Positions 8,745-26,930 of a stretch of DNA of 44,728 bases are shown here, one piece after another. Below the pieces are notes generated by a model that saw only the letters and a list, made by a program, of their open reading frames with translations, was not told where the DNA came from and searched no databases. Source of the DNA: Hyphococcus sp. (GTDB taxonomy: Bacteria; Pseudomonadota; Alphaproteobacteria; Caulobacterales; Parvularculaceae); the NCBI GenBank assembly GCA_021776245.1, contig JAJFGF010000017.1, positions 1-44,728 of the forward strand, written 5' to 3'. Both the position numbers and the translations under genes were made by a program. The first letter of the stretch is position 1, and each line of letters starts with the position of its first letter.

Positions 8745-8788
8745 AAATTAACCGGGATTATTGGCGGCGGGCTGTGACCGGGACCACA
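8745..8788 (-). promoter_or_regulatory. CRP-like operator plus -10 of the giant exported kinase gene
   Basis: TGTGACCGGGACCACA at 8773-8788 is a near-perfect inverted repeat of the CRP class (TGTG-N8-CACA). On the minus strand a TAATTT hexamer lies at 8750-8745, 22 bp beyond the box. This puts the box centre near -42 from the expected start of transcription, a class II activator position. The arrangement matches 12857-12899 and 26888-26930. No good -35 hexamer is visible, as expected for an activator-dependent promoter. Confidence 0.6.
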
Positions 8789-8826
8789 CCGCGCATCAGA
8801 TACGCTGTTGCTCACGCCAACAGGCG

Positions 8827-9504
8827 TCAGCGACCGGGGCCTGCAACCTTGCGGCAGGAAATATTGCCCGTATTGACAGATTTATCATCGTAGACACTGT
8901 CTGACTTCCACTCGAAACCGTCATCCTTGATATCAAAGAATGTAATGGTGCGCATGAAGTCGATGCCATTAGCGTCCGTTGAAGGCGTCGTCATCACCAT
9001 ATGACCCTTGTCATTTTTGACCGCCGTGAACGAGCCGCGCTGGGGCTTTGGTTCCGGCGTCAGCTTGACCACGCCAGGAACCGAGGCAAATGTCACCCAC
9101 CATTCCCTGGCAAATGAATCATAGGCGCGGGTCTGCTCGCCATTGCCGCCCATGCTGTAATACTCATCGCGGATCGCGCGCCCGTCGAGCGCATAATAGG
9201 CGAGCCACAAAAGGTCGCCTTCAAGTTTTTGTGCCGGATTGTTCGGGTTCATCCCGGTAAAATACTGTGTGCAGTCGTGACGGCCGACCATGAACGCAAA
9301 TTGCTGCAGTTCCGGCGCGGCGTCAGGGTTAGGCGATCCCCACGGGCCATCCAGCGCCGGATGGTGTTCAAGCGTGACCCCCAATGTGGAGATTTCCTTG
9401 AACCGTTTTTCAAACGCTTGATCTTCCGGTGAGAGCGAACCGGCCGCCATTGCACATGGCGCGGCAAGCACTGATAAAAGCATGGTTGCGATAAAACTCT
9501 TCAT
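8827..9504 (-). CDS. Exported DUF1579-like protein
   Basis: The 225-residue product begins with a signal peptide (MKSFIATMLLSVLAAPCAMA). The mature part resembles the DUF1579 type of lipocalin-like barrel, with a GRHDCTQ motif after a hydrophobic strand, then DGRAIRDEY and EWWVTF strands. Such proteins are secreted and of unknown function, and none has an assigned catalytic role. AGGGGG lies five bases before the ATG, which supports the start. It lies 192 bp before the start of the giant kinase-like protein gene and on the same strand. That gene has its own operator in the gap, so the two can be transcribed separately. Confidence 0.65.
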   Translation of the reverse strand: MKSFIATMLLSVLAAPCAMAAGSLSPEDQAFEKRFKEISTLGVTLEHHPALDGPWGSPNPDAAPELQQFAFMVGRHDCTQYFTGMNPNNPAQKLEGDLLWLAYYALDGRAIRDEYYSMGGNGEQTRAYDSFAREWWVTFASVPGVVKLTPEPKPQRGSFTAVKNDKGHMVMTTPSTDANGIDFMRTITFFDIKDDGFEWKSDSVYDDKSVNTGNISCRKVAGPGR

Positions 9505-9688
9505 TTCATCCCCCTGTTGAAATTGCCCCTTATTGAATTTCGGGGTCCCATAGACGCTTGAACGATGCGACCCTTGTTAGACAATCGAAAGCGCTAAAGC
9601 CTCAGTTTTCGTACACACCACGCCTGCCGTCATCCCGAACTTGGTTCGATGGTCGAAAGCATGGGCATGCAATGACAAAAATGCGGCG

Positions 9689-10306
9689 CTAATTTCTCAA
9701 AGTTTTGTACTTCTTCCACGACTTATAGTTTTTCGGCATGTCGAGTCGTTTCAGTTCTTTCCAGGCATCTCGCGCTTGTTTATGGGTTGCGTTGTGGTTT
9801 TCACTCAAAAAATCGGAGAGAAAGTTAATGTATCGCCCCGACGGCTCCTGCGCAAATTTCGTCTTTGGTCGGCATAAGACGATATATTGCGCTGCCAAAT
9901 CGCCATATGATATTTTGTTTCCTTTTGCGAGTTGTTCTTCGCGCCATCTATTGAGGCGATAGCGAGCGCCTGATTTTATCTTGAAGTTGGAATCCAACGA
10001 CAATGCCGCTTTGTCGATGAAATCCTTGGTCGCTCTGTTATCAGTGTAGTTATTGACCGGAAGCGAAAGCGTCAGACCCAAATCAACATCTTTGCGCCCG
10101 GAAGGCGTTAGTGTTCGTTTTGTCGGACGTTTACATTTCCCGGTTTTCAAAAAGCCTTTGATGGCCTTTTCCAGCTCATCTTTTCGCAATCTGCTTGCGC
10201 CCTGAATACCGATTTCGCGCGCGAATTTTTTTACTTCAACTGCATACCAATAGCCGTTGTCGAACTCTTCAACCGTCATTTTTCTGGATAGTTTTTTTGA
10301 CGCCAC
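9689..10306 (-). CDS. SAP-domain DNA-binding protein
   Basis: The 205-residue basic protein begins with a SAP-like module (about residues 10-58: TVEEFDNGYWYAVEVKKF, then GIQGASRLRKDELEKAI). That module is a helix-turn-helix fold known to bind DNA. The rest is a Lys/Arg-rich helical region of a kind seen in small bacterial SAP proteins, whose role is unknown. The start codon is GTG at 10306, supported by GGAGGAGA directly upstream; no in-frame ATG is near. The gene begins 43 bp after the MDR oxidoreductase stop and is probably cotranscribed with it. The 9505-9688 gap downstream contains GTCAT...ATGAC ends of a short inverted element and no gene. Confidence 0.7.
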   Translation of the reverse strand: MASKKLSRKMTVEEFDNGYWYAVEVKKFAREIGIQGASRLRKDELEKAIKGFLKTGKCKRPTKRTLTPSGRKDVDLGLTLSLPVNNYTDNRATKDFIDKAALSLDSNFKIKSGARYRLNRWREEQLAKGNKISYGDLAAQYIVLCRPKTKFAQEPSGRYINFLSDFLSENHNATHKQARDAWKELKRLDMPKNYKSWKKYKTLRN

Positions 10307-10349
10307 ATTCTCCTCCGTCGCAGGAACGGGGCAGGTTCAAGGATTCCCG

Positions 10350-11348
10350 TCAAACGTCCGCCACAACCTCAATCACAACATTGCCGATTTTTTGCCCGGT
10401 CTCCACATAGCGATAGGCCTCGACAATGCCCTCAAAGGAATAGCGCCGGTCGATCACCGCATGCCAGCCGCCCTTTTCCATCAGCGCCTTGATCACCGAC
10501 ATGAAGGCGACAAGACCCTCTGCTGTCGGCGTCGGAAAAATAACACGGCGGCTTTTGGTCAGCGACGACCACATCGCCAGTAACACAACATGGCCCCAGG
10601 CGCCGAGATCCGTCGCTGAATAAACGCCGCCTGGCTTGATCAGCGGACGGCATTGAAAATAACTCACTTTGCCGACCGCGTCATAAACATAATCAAACAT
10701 CTCGCCGCATTGCGTAAAGTCTTGCGTCTCGTAATCGATTACCCGGTCCGCGCCGAGCGATTTAACCAGCGCCACATGGGCGCCGGGGCACACCGCCGTT
10801 ACGCGCGCGCCGGCGGCTTTCGCCAGCTGCACGGCCGCCGAGCCGATAGCGCCGGTGGCGCCATAGATCAAAATCGCCTCCCCCGGCTTCACGCCAAAGG
10901 CTTTCAGACTGCCATTGGCGTAAAATGCGCCCTCTAACGGCGCGGCTTCAACAAATGAAAGCCCGCTGGGCATCAGCGCGATGGCGCCGTCCGCCGGCGC
11001 TGCGAAATATTCCGCATGGGCGCCATAAGCAAAGACGCCGGCCAATCCGAATACCCGGTCGCCGGTCTTAAACTTTGTCACGCCCTCGCCCACACGTTCG
11101 ACTGTGCCCGCATAGTCCATCCCGAGAATCTGGATTTTTGGTTTGAAGAGCCCGGTGAAAGCCCGCGCGAAAAACGGATAAGGCGTGCGCATGCCGCAAT
11201 CGGTGCGGTTGACCGTTGTCGCATGCACTTTGACCAGCACCTCGCCCGCGCCCGGTTCCGGTGTTGGAACCTCGCGCAGCGAGACCACTTCCGGCGGACC
11301 GTATGTTGTATTGACGGCGGCTTTCATGCGAGGAGGCGTCTTGTTCAT
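10350..11348 (-). CDS. Zinc-free MDR-family NAD(P)-dependent oxidoreductase
   Basis: The 332-residue product is a medium-chain dehydrogenase/reductase of the quinone-oxidoreductase type. The GroES-like N-terminal domain includes the NRTDCGMR and LGMDYAGTVERVGEGV motifs. The nucleotide-binding Rossmann motif GATGAIG lies at about residues 163-169. The cysteine cluster that binds structural zinc in classical alcohol dehydrogenases is absent. It should reduce an alpha,beta-unsaturated carbonyl or quinone with NADPH in the cytoplasm; the substrate is not predictable. The start at 11348 is preferred because a longer frame to 11441 adds a non-homologous extension. The SAP-domain gene follows by 43 bp. 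Confidence 0.8.
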   Translation of the reverse strand: MNKTPPRMKAAVNTTYGPPEVVSLREVPTPEPGAGEVLVKVHATTVNRTDCGMRTPYPFFARAFTGLFKPKIQILGMDYAGTVERVGEGVTKFKTGDRVFGLAGVFAYGAHAEYFAAPADGAIALMPSGLSFVEAAPLEGAFYANGSLKAFGVKPGEAILIYGATGAIGSAAVQLAKAAGARVTAVCPGAHVALVKSLGADRVIDYETQDFTQCGEMFDYVYDAVGKVSYFQCRPLIKPGGVYSATDLGAWGHVVLLAMWSSLTKSRRVIFPTPTAEGLVAFMSVIKALMEKGGWHAVIDRRYSFEGIVEAYRYVETGQKIGNVVIEVVADV

Positions 11349-11659
11349 GGCGTCACGACCCTGGTTTGCACTTGTAAAAGCCGGGCGCGCCACAGATAGG
11401 CATGTTCCAGGCGCTACGCCAGTGGCTGCAGAACCGCCCAAACAGCCGCGCAGGCTGAATTTCTATCCGGTGCAAAATCGTCAAAGATGATCTTTCGGTG
11501 AGATTGTGTTCAATGGCGGTTGTGTCTGCCCAGAGCGGACAGTGTCGTTGACAATGCCTGGATTTGCCAATTTCCATTAGATTTGCAATACACCAGCCGT
11601 CATCGATTAGAACCAACATGGAAAGGACGCGGCGGCAAAGCGGGCGCGTACCAATTATT
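11349..11659. other. Divergent intergenic region without a recognised gene
   Basis: This stretch separates the MDR gene from the methyltransferase gene. A TTGACA hexamer at 11548-11553 is a possible -35 for the rightward gene, but no well-spaced -10 follows. I see no RNA gene or repeat. Confidence 0.4.
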
Positions 11660-12436
11660 ATGACATTCAGGCATCGGGTTAAGTTTTCGCCGATCGAAGG
11701 CCACAACTTAAACCAGGACGAAGTTTATTTCTTTCTTGTGGAGGATAATCATGACCTCAGAATTCGGTTTCATGATTATCATGAAATCTATAGCAGACCC
11801 GGCCTGTATGAACAAATTTTCTATGACAGATTGAAATGTTCCTCGCCAAAGAAAGTTGGCGAAAATCTGAAAAAGGTTTTGGATGCGAACGAGCGGCCAA
11901 TAACAGAACTCCGCGCCTTGGACCTTGGCGCCGGAAATGGAATTATGGGCGAGGTTTTACGCTCATATGGCGTTTCCAGACTGGTCGGCGTGGACATTAT
12001 TCCGGAAGCAAAAGACGCTGCAGATCGGGACCGCCCGGGGATCTATGATGAATATTATATCGCCGATTTTTGCGACCTAAAAGATGACATGCGCGAGGAG
12101 CTTGATGATTGGTCAATTAATTGTCTGACTTCAGTTGCGGCGCTGGGTTTTGACGATATCCCGGTAAAGGCGTTTTTCGAGGCGTTAAATTGCGTGCAGG
12201 ATGGCGGCTGGGTCGCATTCAATATCAAGGAAACGTTCCTCGACAATTCGGATAACTCCGGATTTTCACTATTCATACGGGAGTTGATATTTTCCAAATT
12301 TTTGAACATCCATCATCTAGAGCGCTATCGGCACAGGCTGTCGATGGAGGGCGTGCCGCTCTACTATTTTTCATTAGTGGCGCAAAAAATGTCCGACATT
12401 CCAGAAGAATTTCTTCGGGACGGTGAGGTTCTTTAG
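11660..12436 (+). CDS. Class I SAM-dependent methyltransferase
   Basis: The 258-residue product has the SAM-binding motif DLGAGNG at residues 88-94. The acidic end of the second strand (GVDII) and a later GGWVAFN segment fit strands 2 and 5 of the Rossmann-like fold. The N-terminal segment IRFHDYHEIYSRPGLYEQ is typical of a set of uncharacterised bacterial methyltransferases with a short helical lid. The methyl acceptor is not predictable. I chose ATG 11660. The frame stays open upstream to a TTG at 11564 with another ATG at 11618, and none of the three has a good ribosome binding site. The gene ends just before a transposase relic. Confidence 0.7.
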   Translation: MTFRHRVKFSPIEGHNLNQDEVYFFLVEDNHDLRIRFHDYHEIYSRPGLYEQIFYDRLKCSSPKKVGENLKKVLDANERPITELRALDLGAGNGIMGEVLRSYGVSRLVGVDIIPEAKDAADRDRPGIYDEYYIADFCDLKDDMREELDDWSINCLTSVAALGFDDIPVKAFFEALNCVQDGGWVAFNIKETFLDNSDNSGFSLFIRELIFSKFLNIHHLERYRHRLSMEGVPLYYFSLVAQKMSDIPEEFLRDGEVL

Positions 12437-12499
12437 ATTAAGCGCTTTCCAGCGTTTGTTCATGACGTCACAATATTCGTTTGAACCCGTAAAAAAACC

Positions 12500-12649
12500 G
12501 GGCGCGTCATTTGCGCACCGTCTTTTGATTGATCTCGCCTGTTCTGCTAATTTCGAGACCGCAGCTTGCGCTTGCTGTATTGCAGCTCTGACGGCGTGCG
12601 TGGTCGTCGCGCAGTCATGTAAAATTTGCCCCACAGGCGTTTCCGCCAT
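12500..12649 (-). pseudogene. IS481-type transposase relic (N-terminal HTH only)
   Basis: The frame from ATG 12649 reads GQILHDCATTTHAVRAAIQ, then KLAEQ, a very good match to the start of IS481-family transposases. The similarity then jumps to another frame as EINQKTVRK, followed by TGA at 12509-12507 where the family has tryptophan, then RAR. A one-base deletion and a nonsense change have therefore destroyed it. No DDE catalytic domain and no terminal inverted repeats are seen nearby. The rest of 12437-12949 holds only the promoter of the next gene. Confidence 0.7.
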
Positions 12650-12856
12650 GACGGATCACTGCATAATGCGATTCCATCACTCCGCCGGACTAAACAGCTG
12701 GGATGCATCAACTACTCTTGATCCTGACGTTCTCGCCCTTTTGGGCGGGCTTCGACGGGCGGGAAAAGAGCAAAAACAAAATCCCGGCCATCCCGGCGAA
12801 AGGTTGGCGCCTTACGTCACACCCTCCCGCCCCCCGGCGCTGAATCGCCCCCCGCC

Positions 12857-12899
12857 TGTGACCGGGATCACACCCCGCCCGCGCGACCGCGCCTAGTCT
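12857..12899 (+). promoter_or_regulatory. CRP-like operator plus -10 of the exported coiled-coil gene
   Basis: TGTGACCGGGATCACA at 12857-12872 fits the CRP consensus TGTGA-N6-TCACA exactly. TAGTCT at 12894-12899 follows after 21 bp. If transcription starts seven bases beyond the hexamer, the box is centred at -41.5, the classical class II position. The palindrome is almost the same as at 8773 and its arms recur at 26915. Confidence 0.65.
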
Positions 12900-12949
12900 G
12901 CCGGTTAACCATGAAACAACGCAGATCAGGCGTTCCGCAGGAGGCAACA

Positions 12950-15121
12950 ATGACCGTCATTAATCATAGCAGCAGCAACCCAAAGATCTCAAAAAAATCG
13001 CCAATGTCGCGACAGAAAATGGCGCTGCTTTTTACAACGGCCATGTTTTGCGTCTCAACGCCGCTTGCCTGGGCTGAAGACGGACCGCCCGCGCCGCAAA
13101 ATCACAATGCCTCACTCAATGCTGAACGCGACCGGCTGCGCGGCGAATTTGAAAATTTGGGCGCCCGCCAGGATAAAATGAATGAAGCGCGCGCGCATTA
13201 TGAAACCCTTCTCGATGAAGCCATCGACGATGGCGACACAGATCGCGCGGCGGACATTCGCAAAATTCTGCAGGAAACCCTCGAACTGCAGACCGCAATC
13301 CACAGCCAATCGACGGATGTGGGCGAGGTTCTGGTGGAACTGGAAAAGCCGGAAATTGAAGCGAAAGCCGAAGAGCTCCACGACATCAGCCAGGAAATCA
13401 ACGACCGTACGGCTGAGGAAATCGCCGAACAACTTGAATGGGAAGGCGATCTTCAGGACGTCAAGGAATGGGTGACCTGGGTCACGCGCTGGGTCTCTAT
13501 TGGTTCAGAAATGCAATATGAAACCGATCGCGGCACGCGGTTGGGCGATTATGCGCTTACCGTAGCGAACGCAAAAATCACCGCCGTTGAAGAGATGCTC
13601 GAAGACGCGGAAGAAGGATCCTACCGCCACTCCGTCCTTACTTGGAAGCTCGATTATTATGTGTCTCAGCGCAACGCAGCGCAGGAATATCTCGACGCCA
13701 TGGAGACGCTCACCCAGATCGGATACACGCTGGATGTTATCCTGCTCGCCACAGGCGCAGCGGCGGTCAATCTCGGAAAGAAGATCGCAGCCTCAGCGGT
13801 CAGTCGCGCTTTTGGCAGAAAAGCCGCAGAGAAGACTGTCGTCGTGTTGGAAAAAGGCCTGACGGAAATTGGCTCTGATGTGATTGGACGCGCCGCCGGC
13901 CGCGAAACTGCCGAATCTGGCGGCCAAGCTGTTGCCAATAATGCGTTGCGGGAATCCGGCGAGAGCGCGGCCGCCAACTCTTCTGAAATGGCGACGCAAG
14001 CTTTGGCCCATCAAGGCGCTGACCAAGTACTTGATCTTGGCCTAAACCTTACGGACGAAGGCTTTGAAGCGGTCTCCAACGCGTTTCAGCAATATCTCAC
14101 ACGCAACAACATTCCGTCCCCAGGCCGGCTTGGGGATGCGAGCCCGCAATGGGTCGCCGCATGGAAACAATTCGTCAACCAGCATCTCGACGAGGTGGTT
14201 GGCGCGGCCGACGATGTTATTCCCCGCGCGGCGGAAATGACATCAGAGCAACTCGCCATGCGGATTCTGGAAGAAGAGGCGGCAATGGCGGGGCGGCAGG
14301 CATTTCGCTCGCCGGCGGGACAGGCGACGGCCAGTTACTGGAATAATTTCTGGCGCGGATTAGCGCAACAAACAGATGAAGTCGCCGCCTATAACACGGC
14401 GCGCGCCGTCGCCGGGATGCGCGGCGTCAAAGCATTACAACAGGCGCGAAAAGCGGCGGCGGATGGCTGGCTCGACGATGTGCTGGATGGTTCAACATTT
14501 TTCAGCGCCGCCCCGGTTTTGTTTGGCCTCTTCGGATTTGGCGCCAGCGAAGCCCACGCTGAAGAAACATCATTTAATGGGAATGCGGCTGGCCCGGGCC
14601 AGAGTCAGCAAACGTCAATAGCGCTGCAAAACGCCATCGGCGCCAAGCCCCGTTTCGGAACGAATTCTTCCGGGTATGGCGGACAATATGGCGGCGGATT
14701 TGGTAACATCGGCGGCGCCGGCAATAGCCTCGCCAATCAAGCGCAATATGAAGCGGAGCGCGCCCGCGAAGAAGCAGGCCGCTATGAGACATTCAATTAT
14801 CAACCCGGCGTGGAATATAATGTCAGCGATCAGATATCCGTTCCCGCGACGGGCAGTCGCCAAAACGCAATGCAATATGGCGTCAGCGATCAGATTTCCA
14901 TTCCTTCCGCGGGCGGCGGGCAGAACCCGTCGAGTGGCGGCGCCCGTTCTCCGAACAGCGCGCCGGCCCGGCCAGCGGGACATGAAAATTGTGAAGATCC
15001 AAATCACGGCCATGCGGTTTCGAGCGGCGCGGGCGCCGGATCTTCTTCTCAATCAAGGATCATGCATACGCCCACAGGCTTATACGCGCCGGGCCAGAGT
15101 TCATCCGGTTCGTCGAATTAA
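12950..15121 (+). CDS. Exported coiled-coil protein with Gly/Ser-rich tail
   Basis: The product has 723 residues. AGGAGG six bases before ATG 12950 fixes the start. A long N-region leads to a signal peptide core (about residues 22-43, ending PLAWA). Residues about 50-170 are Glu/Ala-rich and look like coiled coil. A hydrophobic Ala/Leu segment lies near 255-280, followed by an Ala-rich helical region. Near residue 530 a second signal-like segment (FFSAAPVLFGLFGFGASEAHA) occurs inside the protein. The last 180 residues are Gly/Ser/Asn-rich and contain two copies of a VSDQIS unit. No enzyme motif is seen. I infer a structural or secreted surface protein. Its promoter matches that of the giant kinase-like protein, which suggests joint expression. 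Confidence 0.7.
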   Translation: MTVINHSSSNPKISKKSPMSRQKMALLFTTAMFCVSTPLAWAEDGPPAPQNHNASLNAERDRLRGEFENLGARQDKMNEARAHYETLLDEAIDDGDTDRAADIRKILQETLELQTAIHSQSTDVGEVLVELEKPEIEAKAEELHDISQEINDRTAEEIAEQLEWEGDLQDVKEWVTWVTRWVSIGSEMQYETDRGTRLGDYALTVANAKITAVEEMLEDAEEGSYRHSVLTWKLDYYVSQRNAAQEYLDAMETLTQIGYTLDVILLATGAAAVNLGKKIAASAVSRAFGRKAAEKTVVVLEKGLTEIGSDVIGRAAGRETAESGGQAVANNALRESGESAAANSSEMATQALAHQGADQVLDLGLNLTDEGFEAVSNAFQQYLTRNNIPSPGRLGDASPQWVAAWKQFVNQHLDEVVGAADDVIPRAAEMTSEQLAMRILEEEAAMAGRQAFRSPAGQATASYWNNFWRGLAQQTDEVAAYNTARAVAGMRGVKALQQARKAAADGWLDDVLDGSTFFSAAPVLFGLFGFGASEAHAEETSFNGNAAGPGQSQQTSIALQNAIGAKPRFGTNSSGYGGQYGGGFGNIGGAGNSLANQAQYEAERAREEAGRYETFNYQPGVEYNVSDQISVPATGSRQNAMQYGVSDQISIPSAGGGQNPSSGGARSPNSAPARPAGHENCEDPNHGHAVSSGAGAGSSSQSRIMHTPTGLYAPGQSSSGSSN

Positions 15122-15233
15122 TGCGTTCGGCCAGCAAAACCGCGCCAATCCGTCAGCGGAGGATTATTGAGGCGCCGCCAAATATTTTCCAGCGTTTCGT
15201 CGCCTTTCGACGTTGAACCATAAATCCTGGATT

Positions 15234-15261
15234 ATCGGGCGAATAAAAGGAATCGCCCGAT
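15234..15261. repeat. Perfect 9-bp hairpin after the coiled-coil gene
   Basis: ATCGGGCGA at 15234-15242 and TCGCCCGAT at 15253-15261 enclose a ten-base loop. It lies between two convergent genes. No T-run follows on either side, so it may be a weak terminator or an mRNA-end stem. Confidence 0.45.
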
Positions 15262-15368
15262 GATTCACGCTGTCACCGAACCAAAAGCGTACAAAAGCGG
15301 CGCATTTCAGTTTTTCGCCGGCCGCGATCATTGAGATTATCGCAGCAGATATCTGTGTCAGGATTTCG

Positions 15369-16340
15369 TCAGTTGCTCACATCGGGCGGCGATCCGTTCT
15401 CGCCCAGCCAGTTTCTAACCGCTGCACGAAGTTGGTCGTGCTGACCGATCAGGAAGTGCCCGCCTTTGGAAACAAGGATCAACGCCGCGCCGGGAATACC
15501 GTCTGCGCTGTACGCGGCGTGTACAGGCGGAACAAGCGTATCGTCCTCAGCATGAATCACCAGCGTCGGCCTGGAGATATCGCCAAGTGGATAGTCACGA
15601 GGCAACTCCAAAGTCTGATCATTTGAAATGCCGGCGAGGCGGCGGCTAAGCGGAGACATTTGTTCGAGGACGGTTCGCAGAATGTTGAGTTCCTCTGAAG
15701 TCAGGTTTCGCTGCGCCTCATTCGGCGCGCCAAACAGCGCACCCATGCGCCGCCAGGTAAACTTGCTCAAAGCCCAATAGACGAAGTCATTCGCAATGAT
15801 GCGATTGATGCCCGATATGCGGTCATCGTCGGAGGCCTCCTCGTCATCAATGAAGCTGACAGCGCTTGCCAGAATGAGAGCGGACGCTCTTTCCGGATGA
15901 ATCCGCGCAAACTCTATTCCGGGCGGACCGCCCGCTGATACGCCGACGATCGCAGCCCTGTCTATCTCCAGCTCATCGAGCAGGCACGCGAACGCTTCTG
16001 CCTGGGCGCGCAATGAAACATCCTCCGGAAGAGCGCCAAGATATCCAAATCGAGATGGGGCAATTCGACGATAGCCGTCGCCAACGAGCATCTCGCCCAA
16101 TAACAAGCCTTGATCGTATCCTCCGCCAGCGCCGTGGATGACCAAAATGGGCGGCCCGCTCCCGCGCTCCCCATAGCTAATGGGGCCACATGCGGTTTCG
16201 ATGATTGTTCCCGTTGCAGCAAGCCGGGCGCGTGCCGCTTGCATATCGCGCTGATAAGCGAATACCGCCCAAAGAGCGAACGCCATAATGGCTGCGAGCA
16301 GGAAAAGAAGCGTCGCCGAAATGGTTCTCGTCTTGCGCAT
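15369..16340 (-). CDS. Membrane-anchored alpha/beta hydrolase
   Basis: The 323-residue product begins with one hydrophobic segment (about residues 9-29) that acts as a signal anchor, so the enzyme should face the periplasm. The hydrolase core follows: the oxyanion strand LVIHGAGGG at about 66-74, the nucleophile Ser135 in GVSAGG, an acid in HAEDDTLV and the histidine of KGGHF near the end. This is the classical triad. It resembles small esterase or haloperoxidase-like hydrolases, and the substrate is unknown. GGTAAGGC lies before the ATG. A box fitting the FNR/FixK consensus lies 67 bp upstream of the start codon, which suggests control by oxygen or redox state. Confidence 0.8.
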   Translation of the reverse strand: MRKTRTISATLLFLLAAIMAFALWAVFAYQRDMQAARARLAATGTIIETACGPISYGERGSGPPILVIHGAGGGYDQGLLLGEMLVGDGYRRIAPSRFGYLGALPEDVSLRAQAEAFACLLDELEIDRAAIVGVSAGGPPGIEFARIHPERASALILASAVSFIDDEEASDDDRISGINRIIANDFVYWALSKFTWRRMGALFGAPNEAQRNLTSEELNILRTVLEQMSPLSRRLAGISNDQTLELPRDYPLGDISRPTLVIHAEDDTLVPPVHAAYSADGIPGAALILVSKGGHFLIGQHDQLRAAVRNWLGENGSPPDVSN

Positions 16341-16379
16341 GCCTTACCGCGACCTGCAATGGAAACGAAGTGAAGCGTC

Positions 16380-16420
16380 AGCTTAGGGGCGCCATCAATC
16401 AAATCGTTGACGTAGATCAA
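16380..16420 (-). promoter_or_regulatory. FNR/FixK-type box before the alpha/beta hydrolase gene
   Basis: TTGACGTAGATCAA at 16407-16420 fits the FNR/FixK consensus TTGAY-N4-RTCAA at every fixed position. On the minus strand a weak TAAGCT hexamer at 16385-16380 would put the box near -41. Regulation by oxygen or nitrogen oxides is inferred from the consensus alone. Confidence 0.45.
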
Positions 16421-16514
16421 TTGGAGGCGCCAGACATTCAGATCGCATATAGTGAATCACCGCCACACTGGTAATTTCATCATTGCATATGAACAACGGG
16501 TCGCCGCCGCCCAT

Positions 16515-16552: not shown

Positions 16553-16588
16553 GTCCGCGTTTTTAACGCCGCCAAAAAATGCAGATAC

Positions 16589-19598: not shown

Positions 19599-19616
19599 AG
19601 TGAGCACGGCCCGTCG

Positions 19617-20708
19617 TTAATTGGCGTTGATCTGAATCGGGACGTCTTCGCTGTGACCGGCAGGTGCGCAATCTTCGCTTCCGGCATGAGTGTCAAAGAC
19701 AACTTCATTGCCGCCATTTTTTTTTGCCTCATCAAGACGGGCGCATGCCGCGTCCAGAAACGCGTCATGCGCGACATCCGGTTGAAGCGCCGCAACGCCA
19801 AATGACAACGTGATTTGCCCCAGCTCCTTGCCGGTGCTGCGTGACGAAAAAGTAAATTTTTCAAACGATGAACGAAGCATTTCCGCAACTTTTACAGCAG
19901 CGTTTAAGGCCGTTCCCGGCAGGGCGACGGCAAATTCATCGCCGTGAAGCCGCGCAAGAATATCGCCGCCTTTTGTGTTTCGTTTCAGCAAGTTTGCAAC
20001 ATGCACAAGAACCTGATCGCCGGCTTGATAGCCAAACGCAAAATTGAACCGCTTGAATCGGTCGAGGTTGCAGACAATCAGACAAAGCGGCGTTTTATTT
20101 TCGGCCGCCAGAGCGACATGGTCCTGAAGCAGATAATTGAACCGGCGGCGGTTATTGAGCTTTGTCAATACGTCGCATTCAACGCTTTCTTCGATTTGTT
20201 CAAGAAATGAACGGGTGGCGCTGATATTTTCAACAACGGATTCGACTTTTTGTTGGAGAACCTGGTTTTGTTGTTTGGCTTTCGTTGCCGTTTCCACCAA
20301 CGCTTGAATGACTGAACGCAAATCAGATTCGCTGGGGTTCCCGTGCATGAGTGAAACAACGGCGGATTTAATTTCCGCGCCGAACGTGCCAACCGAGCCT
20401 GACATCGCATGCGCCAGCCCGAGTAACCCGCTTGAATCCGTCGCAAGGCTTTGCATCGCCGAGCCGAGATGATCGCGTTGCTGGTCATCCTTGTGACAAT
20501 ATTTGTCAAACAGGCCTAATAGAAATTGAGAGCTGATCGCATGTTTTTGATCGAGGCGTTCAGATATCTCGTCCGCCAGAGCGCGATCGCAGCCTTCCAG
20601 ATAGCGATACCAAACCACATATTGCTCAGGTATCGCCGGCAATCCAAAAGCGGCAAGTTCCTCCAGCGTCCGCTGGGCAAGCTCGTTTTTGGCGCCTGAG
20701 ACAGCCAT
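19617..20708 (-). CDS. GGDEF protein, probable diguanylate cyclase with HGDEF motif
   Basis: The 363-residue cytoplasmic protein has a helical N-terminal region, with a PEQYVVWYRYLEG motif near residue 25 found in several alphaproteobacterial cyclases, then a coiled linker and a GGDEF domain from about residue 200. The signature reads H255-G-D-E-F rather than GGDEF. The upstream inhibitory I-site reads KGGD where RxxD is usual, so product inhibition may be weak or absent. It should make cyclic di-GMP from GTP, though the changed first residue leaves activity open. I chose ATG 20708; the frame also opens at 20762, which would add 18 residues. Confidence 0.82.
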   Translation of the reverse strand: MAVSGAKNELAQRTLEELAAFGLPAIPEQYVVWYRYLEGCDRALADEISERLDQKHAISSQFLLGLFDKYCHKDDQQRDHLGSAMQSLATDSSGLLGLAHAMSGSVGTFGAEIKSAVVSLMHGNPSESDLRSVIQALVETATKAKQQNQVLQQKVESVVENISATRSFLEQIEESVECDVLTKLNNRRRFNYLLQDHVALAAENKTPLCLIVCNLDRFKRFNFAFGYQAGDQVLVHVANLLKRNTKGGDILARLHGDEFAVALPGTALNAAVKVAEMLRSSFEKFTFSSRSTGKELGQITLSFGVAALQPDVAHDAFLDAACARLDEAKKNGGNEVVFDTHAGSEDCAPAGHSEDVPIQINAN

Positions 20709-21510
20709 CTCGTGAATTCCCAATTTACAACGCGTAAAAATAGAATATTTAAATCCTATCAACGACAGATTGAGTGAACATTAATATCTGGGGTCTGTTT
20801 TCCGGCCGGATTGGCCTTTTCAGGGGGCGGACTTGTCCTTCTTCATCAGCGCGGACTTGTCCGCCGTTCAGGATCATGCCCGGCGTTTGGGTGGTGAATT
20901 TTGAATCAAGATCGGAATGGCGGTCAATTTCAGGCGTTCCCCGACCTCAACCCGCGCTCGCCTCACCCAACCGCGTTTCACATGACAATGGTTACGCCAT
21001 TGTCCAGGCCCTGGCGGCTGTGTTGATGGTCCGCCCCATTTCGCCCATGGCCCGCCACATATCTTCACAGCGCCGTTAAAGCGCGAATAATCCGGACCGC
21101 ATGGCGTCAAGCGCTCGAAACTCGGGTCGTCGATCAGGGCAATGCAACGATCGACTACTCAAATGCGGCGATGAGGCCGAAATATTTTTGCATGAAGGCG
21201 CAAACGAATACAGAAAAATTCGCTCCCTATAGATACTTTTTATTTATTTAAATTGACGCGCCTTTTCTTACAAATAAACGAATGGCTGTCAATATTTTGG
21301 CTCAATATTTGCGCCACAAGAAAGCGCAAAAGCATTACGAACCGCCCATAAATCCGCACGCCGATCGTTGACCGGATATTCAAACCATTTTATCGTGCCC
21401 CTACGGACTAAGCGGGCGTCACAAATGAAGGCCGGGACCGAAAAGTAGAAAACTTATTTGCGCAAAGCCGAAACCAATCGCGGAAGCGAAATCAGGCATT
21501 AATAAACGCA
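20709..21510. other. Long intergenic region with a gene relic and an AT-rich promoter zone
   Basis: The left half contains two copies of GCGGACTTGTCC (near 20825-20865) and the kynureninase relic described separately. The right part (about 21220-21310) is AT-rich and is the likely promoter area of the LuxR-type gene; it has a doubled TCAATATTT(T/G) motif. No intact gene is seen. Confidence 0.5.
20935..21125. pseudogene. Degenerate, internally inverted kynureninase 3' fragment
   Basis: On the plus strand 20981-21018 encodes HDNGYAIVQALAA and is identical over 38 bp to the reverse complement of 22419-22456 in kynU. Directly after it, 21041-21125 read on the minus strand gives FRALDAMRSGLFAL, a stop, then EDMWRAMGE. 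This aligns with FRAPDAIRFGFSAL and QDVWRAMDE, which follow HDNGYAIVQ in the intact gene. The two pieces therefore face each other, so the copy suffered an inversion as well as decay. Confidence 0.75.
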
Positions 21511-22224
21511 ATGAATTACGCAAACCACAGAACGCCGGCCATCGACGAAGCACAGCTTGCGGCTGCATTGACGTCCGTTTTCAGCAAGAGTGATATCATC
21601 CATGGCGCGCTGGGATATGAACGCGCCGACGGCCACTACATGCATGGGGGACCACCTTCCGGTGTGCCATCGATCATCTACTCAATGGGCGTGCATCTTT
21701 CAGAAAGACACAGGCATCCAGGACTGCTGCTCGGAGAAAAACGCTATACGCCAATGGTGATGTCCGCCGCCAATCCGCAAATTGCAGCGCACAGCGATGT
21801 TCGGGAATTTACCGACGCCCTCAAAACCGAGGGCTTTAAAAGCGCCTACTATATCCCCATTCGAGACCATGCCGGCAGGCTATTCGTTTCGGGCATTGGG
21901 AGCCGAACGCGAAAAATAAGCGAAACCGAATCCCGCCTTATCCAATCCTATTGTTTGGAGGCGCTCGAAAATGTTGTGAAGGAACTGGAACCTGCGCCGA
22001 TTGACAACTTGCTTTTGACCTTACGAGAGCGCGAGTGCCTGGTTCAGGCGGCGAGAGGCTTTACCGAAAAACAAGCAGGGAAACACCTCTCCATCAGTCC
22101 TTTTACTGTCCGTGCGCATATTCAAAGCGCCAAATACAAGCTTGGCGCGTGCACAAAGCTCACCGCTATCCTCAAGAGTTTAAGTCTGAGTGAAATATTT
22201 CCTGCAGAATATGAGGCCGTGTAA
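21511..22224 (+). CDS. LuxR-family transcriptional regulator
   Basis: The 237-residue product ends in a typical LuxR/FixJ helix-turn-helix (about residues 170-232: LTLRERECLVQAARGFTEKQ, then SPFTVRAHIQSAKYKL). The N-terminal 160 residues resemble the autoinducer-binding fold of quorum-sensing LuxR proteins, with an AYYIPIRDHAGR strand. The usual ligand-binding Trp/Tyr/Asp pattern is not evident, and no acyl-homoserine lactone synthase gene is in the window. It is best seen as an orphan LuxR-type regulator with unknown ligand. It lies between the kynureninase relic and kynU, and its stop is 25 bp from that of kynU. No clear Shine-Dalgarno sequence precedes the ATG. Confidence 0.75.
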   Translation: MNYANHRTPAIDEAQLAAALTSVFSKSDIIHGALGYERADGHYMHGGPPSGVPSIIYSMGVHLSERHRHPGLLLGEKRYTPMVMSAANPQIAAHSDVREFTDALKTEGFKSAYYIPIRDHAGRLFVSGIGSRTRKISETESRLIQSYCLEALENVVKELEPAPIDNLLLTLRERECLVQAARGFTEKQAGKHLSISPFTVRAHIQSAKYKLGACTKLTAILKSLSLSEIFPAEYEAV

Positions 22225-22249
22225 ATGCTCCGGCTTTTCGGCCGGCGTT

Positions 22250-23485
22250 TCACGTTACTGCGTTCTTTTTCTTAAACCCGGGCGCATCCCAGCTTGCGGT
22301 TTTGACGATGCGTTCCAATTCATCCATCGCCCGCCACACATCTTGATAGCGCGTATAAAGCGCTGAAAAGCCAAACCGGATCGCATCGGGCGCGCGAAAA
22401 TCTGCGATCACACCCGCCGCCGCCAGGGCCTGGACAATGGCGTAACCATTGTCATGCAAAATACAGATATGCCCGCCGCGCATTTCGCCAATGGCCGGCG
22501 ACGGGCTGGGAAGTCCCAACGCTTCGCACCGGGCAAGACAAAGATCGCCAAGGGCGCGCGTTTTTTTTGCGGCGCCGGCCATATCGATCTGATCAAAAAC
22601 GTCGAGCGCGCCAGCCAGCGCCGACAGCGAAAGTACGGGCGGCGTGCCGGCTGCAAAGCGCGCGGCTTTTTCTTTCGGCGCATAGGCGGCGTCAAAGGCA
22701 AAGGGCGCCGCATGCCCAAACCATCCCGCAATCGGCGAACGCACCGATGCCGCAACATCGTCTCTGACATATATATAAGCCGGCGCGCCGGGCCCGCCAT
22801 TGAGATACTTATAGGTACACCCCGTCGCGAGGCGCGCGCCGCAGGCGTTTAGATCAAGGTCGATAACGCCTGCTGCATGGCTCAAATCCCAGATAACGAC
22901 GCCGCCGCAATCCGCCGCTGCGCGTTCATGGGCCGCCATATCGGCAAGCGCCGCTGTGCGGTAATTGACGGCGCTTTTAACAAGTACGCCGCCGCGTTCC
23001 CTCAAAGCAGCAAGCCCCTCGCCCGCCGGCGCGCGCATGAATTTGACGTCAGCAAGCGCGCTCAAACCTTCGACAATATATTGATCGGTGGGAAATTCGT
23101 CTTCTTCGACAATCAACACCCGCGTATTTTTCGCAAGCGGCAATGCAGCCGCCGCAAGTTTAAAAACATTGACCGAGACGCTGTCGCAGACAATCACGTC
23201 TTCCGGCGCCGCGCCGATCAACCGGGCAAGCCTGGCGCCGGTCTGGTTTGGCAAATCAATCCATCCCGCGTCATTCCACGACCCGATAAGACCGCCAGCC
23301 CATTCGCGTTTTGCCGCGTCATCGATCCGCGCCAGCGCGCCATGGGTTGCAGCGCCCAGCGAATGTCCGTCGAGATAGATGAGATCACCGGGCAAATGAA
23401 ACGCGGCGCGTAACGCCGCTAAAGAATCGGCGCAGTCGAGGGCTTTTGCCCCATCGAGCGATGTTGGAACTGAGACAGACGCCAT
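22250..23485 (-). CDS. kynU: Kynureninase
   Basis: The 411-residue PLP enzyme cleaves kynurenine (or 3-hydroxykynurenine) to anthranilate (or 3-hydroxyanthranilate) and alanine. Family landmarks are complete: YLDGHSLGA near the N-terminus, EFPTDQYIVEGL, WDLSHAAGVIDLDL with the cofactor-pairing aspartate, and CTYKYLNGGPGAPAY, where Lys226 should form the Schiff base. The length is usual. I chose ATG 23485; the frame to 23548 would run into the divergent promoter. It is divergent from a kynurenine formamidase-like gene and close to an amino acid symporter gene, so it probably works in tryptophan catabolism. Confidence 0.93.
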   Translation of the reverse strand: MASVSVPTSLDGAKALDCADSLAALRAAFHLPGDLIYLDGHSLGAATHGALARIDDAAKREWAGGLIGSWNDAGWIDLPNQTGARLARLIGAAPEDVIVCDSVSVNVFKLAAAALPLAKNTRVLIVEEDEFPTDQYIVEGLSALADVKFMRAPAGEGLAALRERGGVLVKSAVNYRTAALADMAAHERAAADCGGVVIWDLSHAAGVIDLDLNACGARLATGCTYKYLNGGPGAPAYIYVRDDVAASVRSPIAGWFGHAAPFAFDAAYAPKEKAARFAAGTPPVLSLSALAGALDVFDQIDMAGAAKKTRALGDLCLARCEALGLPSPSPAIGEMRGGHICILHDNGYAIVQALAAAGVIADFRAPDAIRFGFSALYTRYQDVWRAMDELERIVKTASWDAPGFKKKNAVT

Positions 23486-23497
23486 ATTGAGTCTTCT

Positions 23498-23569
23498 ATA
23501 TCGGATGAAAAATGCAACGCATTGAATTGCGCCGAAACGCGCTTGCAATATCTATAATATCGGACGAAA
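23498..23569. promoter_or_regulatory. Divergent kyn promoter region with repeated ATATCGGAYGAAA
   Basis: ATATCGGATGAAA at 23498-23510 and ATATCGGACGAAA at 23557-23569 are direct repeats 59 bp apart between kynU and the formamidase-like gene. TATAAT at 23553-23558 abuts the second copy and may be a rightward -10. The repeats are candidate operators for a shared regulator; no regulator binding can be named. Confidence 0.5.
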
Positions 23570-23625
23570 TAACAATGCAGCTTTTGTCAGCGTTTTCGAA
23601 TGGAAAAAGACGCGAGGAAACGCCG

Positions 23626-24489
23626 ATGCCCGCATCCCGGCCCCCGACTTATCCGATGATTTGGCCAGACCTGTTACGCCGGGCGCGCCCCGATCCCACC
23701 TGTGAAATAAGATTCGGCAAAGGAAAAACCGACCTCGCCGATCTTTGGCTGCCGGAAAACGCCGGTCCGCATCCAACTGTCCTCATGGTGCATGGCGGGT
23801 GTTGGCAAAAGAAAATCGCCGACCGCACTTTGATGAATTATGCAGCGGAAGAATTGCGGCTTAACGGTTTTGCGGTTTGGAATATTGAATATCGCGGCGT
23901 TGATGAAACCGGCGGCGGGTATCCCGGCACTTTTCTCGATGTCGCGGCGGCCGCCGACGCGCTGCGATATCACGCCGCTGAATATAATCTGGATACAAAC
24001 ACCATTATTGCTTTTGGCCACTCCGCCGGCGGACACCTTGCTTTGTGGCTGGCTGCGCGCGCGCGCCTTCCCGCAACCAGCCCACTCAGAACAGATAATC
24101 CTGTGCCAATCCGCAGCGTCATTAATACGGGCGGCCTTGCGGACCTCGAAGCGACCGCGCCCGTCACCGAAGAAGATTGTCTCTCATTGATCATGGATAA
24201 ACTCACCGGCGCACCGAGCAAAACGCGCCCCAATGTCTTTGCGGACACATCGCCGGCGGAACTCTTGCCATGCGGCGCCACGCAAATCTGCATCAATGGC
24301 GATCGCGACCCGATCGCCCCGCCCGTCCTTGGCAGGAACTACACAGTAAAGGCGAAAGCGGCCGGCGATGCGGCGACATATTGCGAGATTAAAGATACCG
24401 GCCATGTGGAATTGATTGCGCCGGGAACACGCGCCTTTGATCAGACATTATTGATTATCAAAGCTCTGCTTCCTCCACCGTCATCCTGA
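23626..24489 (+). CDS. Alpha/beta hydrolase, probable kynurenine formamidase
   Basis: The 287-residue product has the HGGxW oxyanion motif (His56 to Trp60, HGGCW) that marks the alpha/beta-hydrolase class of kynurenine formamidases. The triad is Ser133 in GHSAGGH, an Asp at 226 or 228 in NGDRDP, and His260 in TGHVEL. It should hydrolyse N-formylkynurenine to kynurenine and formate, one step before its divergent neighbour kynU. A general esterase role cannot be excluded from motifs alone. GAGGAAA seven bases before ATG 23626 fixes the start, although the frame opens earlier at 23512. It is not related to the metal-dependent KynB of pseudomonads. Confidence 0.78.
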   Translation: MPASRPPTYPMIWPDLLRRARPDPTCEIRFGKGKTDLADLWLPENAGPHPTVLMVHGGCWQKKIADRTLMNYAAEELRLNGFAVWNIEYRGVDETGGGYPGTFLDVAAAADALRYHAAEYNLDTNTIIAFGHSAGGHLALWLAARARLPATSPLRTDNPVPIRSVINTGGLADLEATAPVTEEDCLSLIMDKLTGAPSKTRPNVFADTSPAELLPCGATQICINGDRDPIAPPVLGRNYTVKAKAAGDAATYCEIKDTGHVELIAPGTRAFDQTLLIIKALLPPPSS

Positions 24490-24507
24490 ATTTACTTAAG
24501 GGTCCAC

Positions 24508-24545
24508 AGGCAAACGCCTGTTATGCCGTCGATTGAATTCAATCG
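24508..24545. repeat. Two adjacent palindromes before the NSS symporter gene
   Basis: ACAGGC-AAAC-GCCTGT is followed by the perfect 16-bp palindrome CGATTGAATTCAATCG at 24530-24545. The first may end the upstream transcript. The second could be an operator for the symporter gene. Confidence 0.4.
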
Positions 24546-24614
24546 GCCGCCAAAACGCACCGCAGCAAAAGCTGGTTGGCAATGAAGGCTTCAGCCCGTA
24601 AAGGTTTCAACACA

Positions 24615-26000
24615 ATGAGCACAGATAGTCCGAGCGAAACTCCTTTGCACGAAACCTGGTCCACCAACCGGGCATTTTTGTTTGCATCGATCGGATGCGC
24701 CGTCGGCCTCGGCAATGTCTGGCGCTTTCCTTATATCACCGGCATCAATGGCGGCGGCGCCTTCATCTTTATCTATTTGTTGTGCATCGTTCTGTTTGTC
24801 GCGCCGCTGTTAATGGCGGAACTGACGCTTGGCCGTCTGGGCCGCAAAAGCGCGGTCACAACCATGCGCGATTTAATCAAGGCCGGAAATTTATCGCGCG
24901 GCTGGATGAGCGTCGGCTGGCTTGCGCTCATCATCCCTGCGCTCGGCCTTTCCTATTACTCGATCGTCGCCGGCTGGAGTCTTGCCTATATGGTGATGGC
25001 GATCCGCGGCGTATTCGAGGGCATGACCGGCAGTCAATCGGCGGCGGCCTTTGAGGGCCTTTCCGGCGCGCCGGTTTCAACGCTTTTCTGGCACGCAGTT
25101 TTCATGATGTTGACGACCTTCATCGTCGCCAGAGGATTACATGGCGGCCTTGAAAAAGCGGTAAAACTTTTGATGCCCGCTTTATTCACGTCGCTCATCG
25201 CGCTCGTTCTTTATGCGGCGGCCACGGCGGATTTCGCCGGCGGTTTAAAGTTCATGTTCTCCGTCGATTTTACGAAAGTCACCGGCGAAACGGTGTTGAT
25301 GGCCGTGGGTCAGGCGTTCTTTTCCGTTGCGGTCGGCGTCGGCGCCATGATCACCTATGGCGCCTACCTGCCATCCTCGATTTCAATTCCCCGCGCCGGA
25401 ATCATCATCGCCGGCGCCGATACAATGGTTGCGATCCTTGCGGGATTAGCGATTTTCCCAATCCTCTTTGCCGCCGGTCTGGACGCCGGTCACGGACCAG
25501 GGCTTTTATTCGTAACCATGCCGATTGCTTTTGGATCGGTGCCGGGCGGCGTGATTTTTGGCGCGCTCTTTTTCTTTCTCATTGCAACAGCGGGCCTCAC
25601 ATCAACCATCGGCATGCTGGAGCCCATCGTCTCGTGGCTCGAAGAAAAACCCGGCTTTACCCGTCCTGTGGTCACCGTGATTTGCGGCCTTGTCATATGG
25701 GCGGCGGGCATCGGCGCTGCGCTTTCCTACAGCCTTCTTTCCGGTTATTATCCGCTCGATTTTATCGACCTGTTCGATAAAAAAACCATCTTTGATGTGA
25801 CCGATTATATCGTCGCCAATGTGCTGATCCCGCTCAGCGGCCTGTTGATCGCCCTCTTCGTTGGCTGGCGCATCGCCGCGCCTCTCGTCGCCAAAGAACT
25901 ATCGCTTGACGGCAAGCGTTTTAAGGTCTGGCAGTTTCTCATTCGCTTCGTCGCGCCGATTGCGTTGATCGCGATTTTTATTGCGAATGCGTTGGGGTGA
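24615..26000 (+). CDS. Sodium-dependent NSS-family amino acid symporter
   Basis: The 461-residue protein is a neurotransmitter:sodium symporter (SNF/LeuT family). The first helix carries the family signature around GCAVGLGNVWRFPY, the unwound region that binds sodium and substrate, followed by NGGGAFIFIYLL. About eleven to twelve hydrophobic segments follow. Bacterial members import amino acids such as tryptophan, tyrosine or leucine with sodium. Its position after the kynurenine formamidase-like gene makes tryptophan or kynurenine a reasonable substrate, but that is context only. I chose ATG 24615, which lies just before the conserved start; upstream in-frame ATGs at 24576 and 24582 are possible. 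Confidence 0.88.
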   Translation: MSTDSPSETPLHETWSTNRAFLFASIGCAVGLGNVWRFPYITGINGGGAFIFIYLLCIVLFVAPLLMAELTLGRLGRKSAVTTMRDLIKAGNLSRGWMSVGWLALIIPALGLSYYSIVAGWSLAYMVMAIRGVFEGMTGSQSAAAFEGLSGAPVSTLFWHAVFMMLTTFIVARGLHGGLEKAVKLLMPALFTSLIALVLYAAATADFAGGLKFMFSVDFTKVTGETVLMAVGQAFFSVAVGVGAMITYGAYLPSSISIPRAGIIIAGADTMVAILAGLAIFPILFAAGLDAGHGPGLLFVTMPIAFGSVPGGVIFGALFFFLIATAGLTSTIGMLEPIVSWLEEKPGFTRPVVTVICGLVIWAAGIGAALSYSLLSGYYPLDFIDLFDKKTIFDVTDYIVANVLIPLSGLLIALFVGWRIAAPLVAKELSLDGKRFKVWQFLIRFVAPIALIAIFIANALG

Positions 26001-26045
26001 GGTGAGCGAATTGCGATCCGCCGCCCCAAAAATAAACGCCGCCTC

Positions 26046-26066
26046 TATCCTGAAGGGCGCAGGATA
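26046..26066. terminator. Hairpin after the NSS symporter gene
   Basis: TATCCTG, a seven-base loop and CAGGATA form a 7-bp stem, framed by CGCCG and CGGCG further out. It stands between convergent genes. The T-run is missing, so termination strength is uncertain. Confidence 0.5.
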
Positions 26067-26078
26067 AAGACGGCGCTC

Positions 26079-26124
26079 CCGCGCGCGAAGGCGCGGTTAC
26101 TCAACGCTTGACCGCGAAGGCGGT
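26079..26124 (-). repeat. Single full copy of the 46-bp dispersed element
   Basis: Read on the minus strand, the segment aligns without gaps to the 46-bp unit at 44624-44669, with about 35 of 46 bases equal. Both small palindromes and the GCGGTCAAG core are kept. The changed bases in the first palindrome's loop leave its stem intact. Confidence 0.65.
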
Positions 26125-26156
26125 TGGGGGACGATGGAGAGATGTATCTATCAGGA

Positions 26157-26840
26157 CTACCTTTCATTGATGGGCCGGAAACTCGGCGTCACATAGATGA
26201 GCACGTCACCTCTTTGGATGCCGCTTTTTTCCGCCGGCCGGCCGAGACGGCCGTTGAGGTTTGGGATCTGGCTCAAACGGTTAGGCACATAGCCATTCAC
26301 ATTGACGCGCGCGACCTGATTTGACGTATTGAGGTTGGGCTGAATATTATTGAGGCCCTGGCCCCATTGCAGGTTTTGATTGCTGCTTGCGCCGCTAATC
26401 CGCACACCGCCGAATCGATTGACGTATCCTTGTGGTTGCGCTGGCGCGTTGATGTTTGGGCGCCGGCGAAATTCCTCGGCGGTGGGAGCGATATTCCCGT
26501 GGCGATTTGTTCCCGCAAATGTATCCCGGGATTTGTTTCGCCCATATTGCAGTTGCATTTTGATGCCGCTTTCAGCATCGATTCTCGGCGTCCAGCGCAA
26601 TTGTGTCCCAAGGGAAGCGCGCCTGATTGAGAAGCCGCTATTCTGGTTCGGCGTCGCTTGAGTCTGCGGCGGCGACTGTTGATAGGTATACTGCGGATTA
26701 TATTGCAAATTGCCATAGGAAAGGCAGCCGGCGCTGGCGGGCGCCAGTGAAGCGATCAAAAGAGATGAAACAACTGCGCCGCCCATCAGCGTGCGTCGCA
26801 TTGTGTTTTTTGATCCGGTGGATGCTTTGTGATGTGTCAT
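26157..26840 (-). CDS. Exported Asn/Gln-rich protein with a PDZ-like end
   Basis: The 227-residue product has a twin-basic N-region followed by a hydrophobic signal core ending in APASA (about residue 37). The mature protein is rich in Asn, Gln, Pro and Arg. It contains Tyr/Gln repeats near the N-terminus (YNPQYTYQQ) and no enzyme motif. The last 25 residues, with EKSGIQRGDVLIYV, match the carboxylate-binding end of a PDZ domain, where the pattern sGIQrGDvI is typical. GAGGACAAGGAC lies directly before ATG 26840. Its promoter carries the same CRP-like box as the giant kinase-like and coiled-coil genes, so it probably belongs to the same regulon. The function is unknown. Confidence 0.65.
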   Translation of the reverse strand: MTHHKASTGSKNTMRRTLMGGAVVSSLLIASLAPASAGCLSYGNLQYNPQYTYQQSPPQTQATPNQNSGFSIRRASLGTQLRWTPRIDAESGIKMQLQYGRNKSRDTFAGTNRHGNIAPTAEEFRRRPNINAPAQPQGYVNRFGGVRISGASSNQNLQWGQGLNNIQPNLNTSNQVARVNVNGYVPNRLSQIPNLNGRLGRPAEKSGIQRGDVLIYVTPSFRPINER

Positions 26841-26887
26841 GTCCTTGTCCTCGGTTGGTTTGGTTCGTGTTGAATCTCGGTAAACGC

Positions 26888-26930
26888 AAATTAACCAGGG
26901 CCACCGGCCGGACCTGTGATCCCGCGCACA
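26888..26930 (-). promoter_or_regulatory. CRP-like operator plus -10 of the Asn/Gln-rich protein gene
   Basis: On the minus strand TGTGCGCGGGATCACA (26930-26915) differs from the 12857 box at two bases. It is followed after 21 bp by TAATTT at 26893-26888. That hexamer and its flank (GGTTAATTTG) are the same as in the promoter at 8745-8788. Confidence 0.6.

Follow-up and report, generated by a model that had tools for sequence, protein, structure and literature searches.

A putative CRP-type class II promoter module before three exported proteins of Hyphococcus and its candidate regulator

Exported proteins and promoters of the window

The window, a stretch of 44,728 nucleotides (nt) from Hyphococcus sp., covers all of contig C9, one of 76 contigs that make up a 4.14-Mb genome, and it encodes three exported proteins that are each preceded by a CRP-type palindrome. 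P0001 (3805..8634, minus strand) has 1609 residues, no Pfam family and a weakly kinase-like C-terminal stretch, P0002 (12950..15121, plus strand) is a coiled-coil protein of 723 residues, and P0003 (26157..26840, minus strand) is an Asn/Gln-rich protein of 227 residues. An earlier note, made from the sequence alone, had given these lengths together with signal peptides for all three proteins, and had proposed that the palindromes belong to one promoter module read by a single activator. The lengths and the signal peptides all agree with our analysis, and the three palindromes were found at the coordinates given there.

Box 1, TGTGGTCCCGGTCACA when read towards the gene, is a palindrome at 8773..8788 (minus strand), box 2 at 12857..12872 (plus strand) is TGTGACCGGGATCACA with two perfect half-sites, and box 3 at 26915..26930 (minus strand) is TGTGCGCGGGATCACA. 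Compared to a TGTGA-N6-TCACA-like palindrome, box 2 contains no mismatch and boxes 1 and 3 contain one each. The -10-like hexamers that had been claimed at 21-22 bp were measured 22 nt after box 1 (TAATTT, 8745..8750, minus strand; the usual distance is 21 nt), 21 nt after box 2 (TAGTCT, 12894..12899, plus strand) and 21 nt after box 3 (TAATTT, 26888..26893, minus strand). Because of these predicted -10 hexamers the box centres would be located close to -41.5, which fits the earlier proposal. The start codons follow the boxes at distances of 138 nt (P0001), 77 nt (P0002) and 74 nt (P0003). Promoters 1 and 3 also have the reported common element, GGTTAATTTG (8744..8753 and 26887..26896, both on the minus strand), which occurs nowhere else in the 754,024 examined bases of this genome and is extended to GGTTAATTTG-N2-TTTAC in both. 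The pattern TGTG-N8-CACA is found three times in the window, while dinucleotide shuffles of the window contain 0.37 matches on average and none of 100 shuffles reached three.

The products themselves resemble few other proteins. The label of a kinase-ending protein for P0001 holds at a sub-threshold level only: no Pfam kinase profile matches its C-terminus and kinases of the PDB were found only at E-values of 0.1-1.7, while the structure model of this region (predicted local distance difference test, pLDDT, of 37.2) was too poor for a structure search. Residues 50-116 of P0003 give a secretin match below threshold (19.7 bits, cut-off 27.5) and residues 202-215 a partial PDZ-like end (E 0.2). 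A PHROGs search with four proteins returned no matches. In the search set of 60 genomes, which comprises the own genome and 59 relatives, P0001 has weak matches in two related genomes (G006 and G007; 21-31% identity) and P0003 has a single match (E 9e-4). P0002 has no relative in the 59 related genomes and none in the GTDB contigs.

The module in the genome and the C69 cluster

Scanning the whole genome for TGTG-N8-CACA yielded 23 matches versus 17 for a reversed-pattern control, so that the box alone is not clearly enriched in the genome. According to the gene caller 15 of the 23 boxes are inside genes and eight are intergenic. The composite module, TGTG-N8-CACA followed by N19-22 and TANNNT, for which the earlier note had proposed a scan of this kind, is found only five times in 4.14 Mb compared to one control match, with three sites in the window and two on contig C69. 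All five composite sites are intergenic, as against three of the 18 other boxes (Fisher p 0.0017), and all stand upstream of an exported or membrane open reading frame (ORF). The earlier note had named many equal boxes at random positions as the case against its proposal. The scan for the box with a -10 came out in favour of the proposal. A near-match scan with TGTGACCGGGATCACA allowing up to three mismatches gave 39 matches versus 3 in the control but is not used as evidence because, of 38 sites examined, 29 are inside called genes, one is partly so and eight are between genes. One near-box, TCTGACCGAGATCACA, is located on contig C43 (L045:3652-15054) between a type I secretion operon and a divergent gene for a 1963-residue cadherin/RTX protein. 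As neither direction offers a -10 at the 21-nt spacing, the operon was rejected as a candidate for the regulon.

The two composite sites on C69 belong to a gene cluster, examined as locus L043 (C69:1-20000), that also encodes a CRP-family regulator. On one strand csgG (7893-8936; CsgG domain PF03783, 95.8 bits, E 2.8e-27) is followed by the gene of an exported coiled-coil protein of 841/875 residues, here called p841 (5202-7829), and by the regulator (G000:C69:4243-4947; cNMP_binding and HTH_Crp_2 domains), which is thus the third gene after the csgG promoter, with gaps of 63 and 254 nt. The opposite strand carries a class III adenylate/guanylate cyclase with a CHASE2 domain (9849-11780), an exported 242-residue protein and an M48 peptidase. 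One box occupies the gap that separates csgG from the gene of the 242-residue protein, and the second box, at 12910, is upstream of a 61-residue membrane ORF (L043:13000-13182, plus strand), the own version of the microproteins described below. The CsgG protein matches the CsgG of the PDB weakly (E 0.12), and its AlphaFold2 model (mean pLDDT 38.6) is unusable for a structure search.

The recognition helix of the C69 regulator reads R-E-S-V-N-R, which is of the TGTGA type. The R-E...R contact residues are known from Escherichia coli CRP, and they are present in none of the five other aligned CRP/FNR-type proteins of the genome. The best match of the regulator in the PDB is Clr of Sinorhizobium meliloti (7PZA), with mycobacterial and other CRPs scoring nearly equal. 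The earlier suggestion of one CRP/FNR-family activator can thus be given a likely name, the C69 regulator, based on this helix and on the distribution of the module in related genomes. It needs the correction that the regulator and the likely cyclase are encoded outside the window. The regulon of this genome would likely also include csgG and the short membrane protein.

P0002 and p841 have a short motif in common. In P0002 it reads LQNAIGAKPRF (codons at 14624..14656, plus strand), and LQ(N/D)A-x4-P-x-(F/Y) or a near variant is present in p841 and in exported regulon proteins of about 270-310 residues of the relatives. Among 1.67 million residues (ORFs of at least 60 residues, redundant loci included) the motif has eight distinct contexts, seven of which are in these proteins; the eighth is in a reading frame of L225 that overlaps with called genes. 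The motif appeared in eight of 200,000 shuffles of P0002. These counts have to be read with the restriction that P0002 and p841 are not independent of the motif, because it was defined after both had been seen. Aligning P0002 to the p841 profile covers 24 columns in the motif region only, with an E-value of 9e-4 but a probability of 23%, while P0001 and P0003 could not be aligned to this profile. In four p841 homologues the motif is degenerate (LENA in L173 and L174, LLDA in L176, P-x-I in L177). Apart from two matches at E > 0.05, the A1 profile, which derives from sequences of these genomes themselves, matches only genomes with the csgG cluster, and it missed P0002 when the genomes were searched. 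The notion of one secreted system therefore holds in part: P0002 is connected to p841 by the short motif, P0003 by its promoter only, and P0001 is off-pattern with relatives that do not have a box.

Related genomes, products and microproteins

The genus includes metagenome-assembled genomes named Marinicaulis sp., a name now placed under Hyphococcus, Parvularculaceae. A close csgG (69-76% identity) was identified in ten congeners, and four more distant genomes have weaker matches (the best, in G041, with 38% over part of the protein). All ten close csgG genes are preceded by a box with the spacer of exactly 21 nt. The gene order M48 peptidase, cyclase, 230-256-residue protein, box, csgG, p841 and regulator recurs in L173, L176 (where another p841-like gene precedes the regulator) and L177. 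These three loci appear to belong to the ten csgG congeners, with L173 and L177 sharing identical stretches with G007 and G012. Near the cluster, L173:476-2218 encodes an exported von Willebrand-A-type protein according to a Pfam match. Another protein of this type, judged by the resemblance of its start, is encoded at L228:1081-2862 with a box at 2928, 66 nt before the gene.

Based on a search for the regulator, 27 congeners were grouped into ten whose orthologue reaches 65% identity or more (in one of them a fragment), eight with a homologue of 45-50% and nine with neither. The module has 40 matches versus 10 in the control in the first group, 31 versus 8 in the second, and 7 versus 11 in the third (Fisher p 0.0009 when groups one and two are compared with group three). 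Judged from these counts, the composite module tracks the C69-type regulator. In both regulator-bearing groups the CHASE2 cyclase is encoded in one cluster with the regulator. In addition, the regulator gene is located 337-955 nt behind a box in all eight related cassettes examined, which suggests that the regulator may be under positive feedback.

The scans of the own genome and the congeners give 83 module places. The DNA examined for geometry and products covers many of these and also two genomes of other genera, and it contains 67 distinct composite sites. Products were labelled by a heuristic based on a Shine-Dalgarno-like stretch, a start 45-145 nt from the box and a hydrophobic N-terminus, the 'exported' label being indicative only because 36% of 635 called genes satisfy the hydrophobicity cut. 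This resulted in 22 microproteins, 27 exported or membrane proteins (three of them also microproteins), seven other products and 11 sites without an ORF. The spacer is 21 nt in 46 of the 49 sites with an exported/membrane or microprotein ORF, and the start is 53-94 nt away in 48 of them (138 nt for P0001). The 18 remaining sites have mixed spacers, 21 nt in six of them (p 1e-6 versus the labelled sites), and neither an exported protein nor a microprotein was assigned to any of the seven sites of the regulator-free group. The labels probably contain some errors, as at least one site of the 'other' class, L197, looks exported and a few labelled sites such as L199 look doubtful. With the indicative label, these sites support the claim that box-bearing promoters favour exported products. 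L197, L200 and L204, from congeners without a close csgG (G004, G009 and G020), encode small exported-looking proteins of 96-136 residues under a composite box, two of which start with MTNRTFYAS and MSNRTIYMS.

A frequent output of the module is a family of membrane microproteins of 27-32 residues, which follow a box in many relatives. Aligning 16 sequences gave the consensus MGxIExILIGFIGxNAALGVSSLFTxxR with E5, F11, I12, L18 and S22 being invariant. In seven of the eight cassettes (L217-L222, L224 and L225) two to three tandem copies, each with its own CRP-type box, lie in the interval from the CHASE2 cyclase to the regulator. The remaining cassette has one copy, and in L221 two other genes are also present in this interval. 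Pairwise differences between 12 related 28-residue copies amount to 345, 257 and 753 at codon positions 1, 2 and 3, and this third-position excess fits a translated gene. Nothing above threshold was found for the microproteins in Pfam or NCBIfam, with three members tested in each. It is a conserved family with an expression switch that is readable in the sequence.

Two observations concern other genes. The window contains two adjoining beta-propeller (PD40) genes at 555-2442 (minus strand) whose products both have MKFAFAFIGLV near the start and which are probably tandem duplicates. Elsewhere in the genome, an ORF at about 8870 of L074 (plus strand; contig C15) starts with MTWRLGIDLGTNSLGWAALKLEQ, which we take to resemble the start of a Cas9-type RuvC domain.

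A predicted small regulon and known systems

Most probably, the three boxes of the window are class II activator sites for the CRP-family protein of C69 and belong to a small regulon switched by cyclic AMP (cAMP). The boxes, their spacing, the gene neighbourhoods, their conservation and the residues of the recognition helix are directly observed in the sequence. The genome-wide count of box plus -10, the regulator and the constancy of the spacer support the proposed common class II module. Activation that depends on the regulator and on cAMP is a prediction for the three promoters. From these observations we infer cAMP as the ligand, direct binding, activation, the operon structure and a surface role of the exported proteins. 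An envelope signal would act on the CHASE2-domain cyclase of the C69 cluster, with the small exported protein as a possible partner. The cyclase would then produce cAMP, which would be bound by the CRP-family protein. The loaded regulator would bind TGTG-N8-CACA and recruit RNA polymerase to the -10 located 21 nt further on. Its targets in the own genome would be csgG and the genes behind it, the short C69 membrane protein, P0002, P0003 and probably P0001. In this way three orphan exported proteins would be assigned as candidates to a regulon whose regulator is named and whose sensor is probable, and their function could therefore be tested by switching a single pathway.

Several points weigh against this interpretation. 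Promoter 1 deviates with its spacer of 22 nt and the start at 138 nt, no box was found upstream of the P0001 relatives in G006 and G007, and P0001 would thus be the weakest member of the regulon. The window proteins are near-orphans and their own promoters can therefore not be footprinted. Sites from related genomes cannot be counted as independent observations, the reversed-pattern control is crude, and among the congeners of both kinds, those having the regulator and those lacking it, several are incomplete (76-89% complete). Also, a CRP/FNR-type protein on contig C42 with the helix S-R-Q-A-I-N-K could bind a related site. With PF00027 matching at eight places in the genome, the boxes might be part of a general cAMP-CRP (catabolite) regulon read by such a protein, its R...K helix being able to read a TGTG-like site, and the three genes would be incidental. 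We regard this as unlikely, as only five matches of box plus -10 exist in 4.14 Mb, the module is at background in the nine congeners for which the search returned no close regulator of the C69 type, and the boxes cluster with the C69-type regulator and the CHASE2 cyclase in both genome groups.

Another candidate for the main switch of the window promoters is a regulator reading GGTTAA, perhaps CtrA-like, as this hexamer resembles a CtrA half-site, with the CRP-type box being secondary. GGTTAA is found between box and start in all three window promoters compared to 9 of 325 intergenic 110-nt upstream regions, a comparison that is not exact because the P0001 copy is located just beyond 110 nt from the start. 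It also flanks the csgG box on the other side in the own genome and in nine of the ten congeners, and the element GGTTAATTTG is confined to promoters 1 and 3. However, the distance of GGTTAA to the box varies, being 19 nt after box 1, 30 nt after box 2 and 18 nt after box 3, the copies in promoters 1 and 3 overlap the -10, and none was seen between box and start of the own csgG promoter. Such a switch seems quite improbable to us. That the palindromes precede exported genes just by chance is very unlikely. The bare box is close to its control, the near-matches are mostly in genes, and over a third of the genes pass the hydrophobic cut, but none of the shuffles of the window reached three boxes, all five composite sites are placed like promoters, the csgG box is present in all ten congeners, and the spacer is near-constant at 21 nt.

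Returning to the C69-controlled regulon, its purpose could be a self-contained, cAMP-run surface export. The CHASE2 cyclase and the regulator might switch on a CsgG-type exporter together with unrelated cargo carrying LQ(N/D)A-x4-P-x-(F/Y) as an export or anchoring signal, and the 28-residue microproteins might tune the cyclase by feedback. This extended scheme is speculative and we think it rather unlikely as a whole. We hypothesise that the motif proteins may be exported in the CsgG manner.

Class II promoters of Escherichia coli CRP have TGTGA-type half-sites, a box centre close to -41.5 and an activator with the R-E...R helix, and the half-sites, the predicted box centre and the recognition helix agree with this here. 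The differences are the few sites, the strict spacing and the cyclase encoded in the cluster of the regulator. In a literature search of limited coverage we found no paper combining CsgG, CHASE2 and adenylate cyclase, and none combining CRP, microprotein and 'class II promoter'. The signalling would be of a known kind, with the microprotein output being unexpected.

The CsgG domain, which exceeds the Pfam cut-off, and the exported proteins rich in Asn, Gln and Gly that have the same type of promoter are reminiscent of curli CsgG and of the Caulobacter holdfast anchor HfaABD (PMC6707917). The C69 protein differs from these in matching the HfaB equivalog of NCBIfam with 15.2 bits only (cut-off 300) and in having no lipobox by sequence inspection, and it is a putative export channel.

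The closest likeness is to the CyaD1/CyaD2/CyaK - Clr - smc02178 cascade of Sinorhizobium meliloti. There, the genes clr and cyaD1, one for a FecR-domain protein and smc02178, an exported Clr target of unassigned function, have consecutive gene numbers and the Clr box is TGTTN8AACA (PMC5498481), CyaD1 carries CHASE2 (PMC13001267) and 7PZA is the structure of Clr (PMC10127613). Both systems have a CHASE2 cyclase gene near the gene of a CRP-family regulator, a target gene nearby whose product is exported (here by sequence) and a 16-bp palindrome, and the best PDB match of our regulator is Clr itself. A FecR-domain gene alongside is found here in the related cassette L217 (PF04773, 28.6 bits, cut-off 24), in which a tetratricopeptide repeat (TPR) protein with a sub-threshold surface-barrel match adjoins the cyclase, and not in the own cluster, whose 242-residue protein has no FecR match. 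The likeness is not taken for orthology, the E-values to other CRP structures being nearly equal, and what is controlled here would be csgG, exported proteins with the motif and membrane microproteins. Because the box is TGTGN8CACA, we describe the system as working like the Clr cascade but do not file it as one. The comparison suggests that the arrangement of CHASE2 cyclase and CRP-family regulator of a plant symbiont is also present in a marine lineage, where it would control other outputs.

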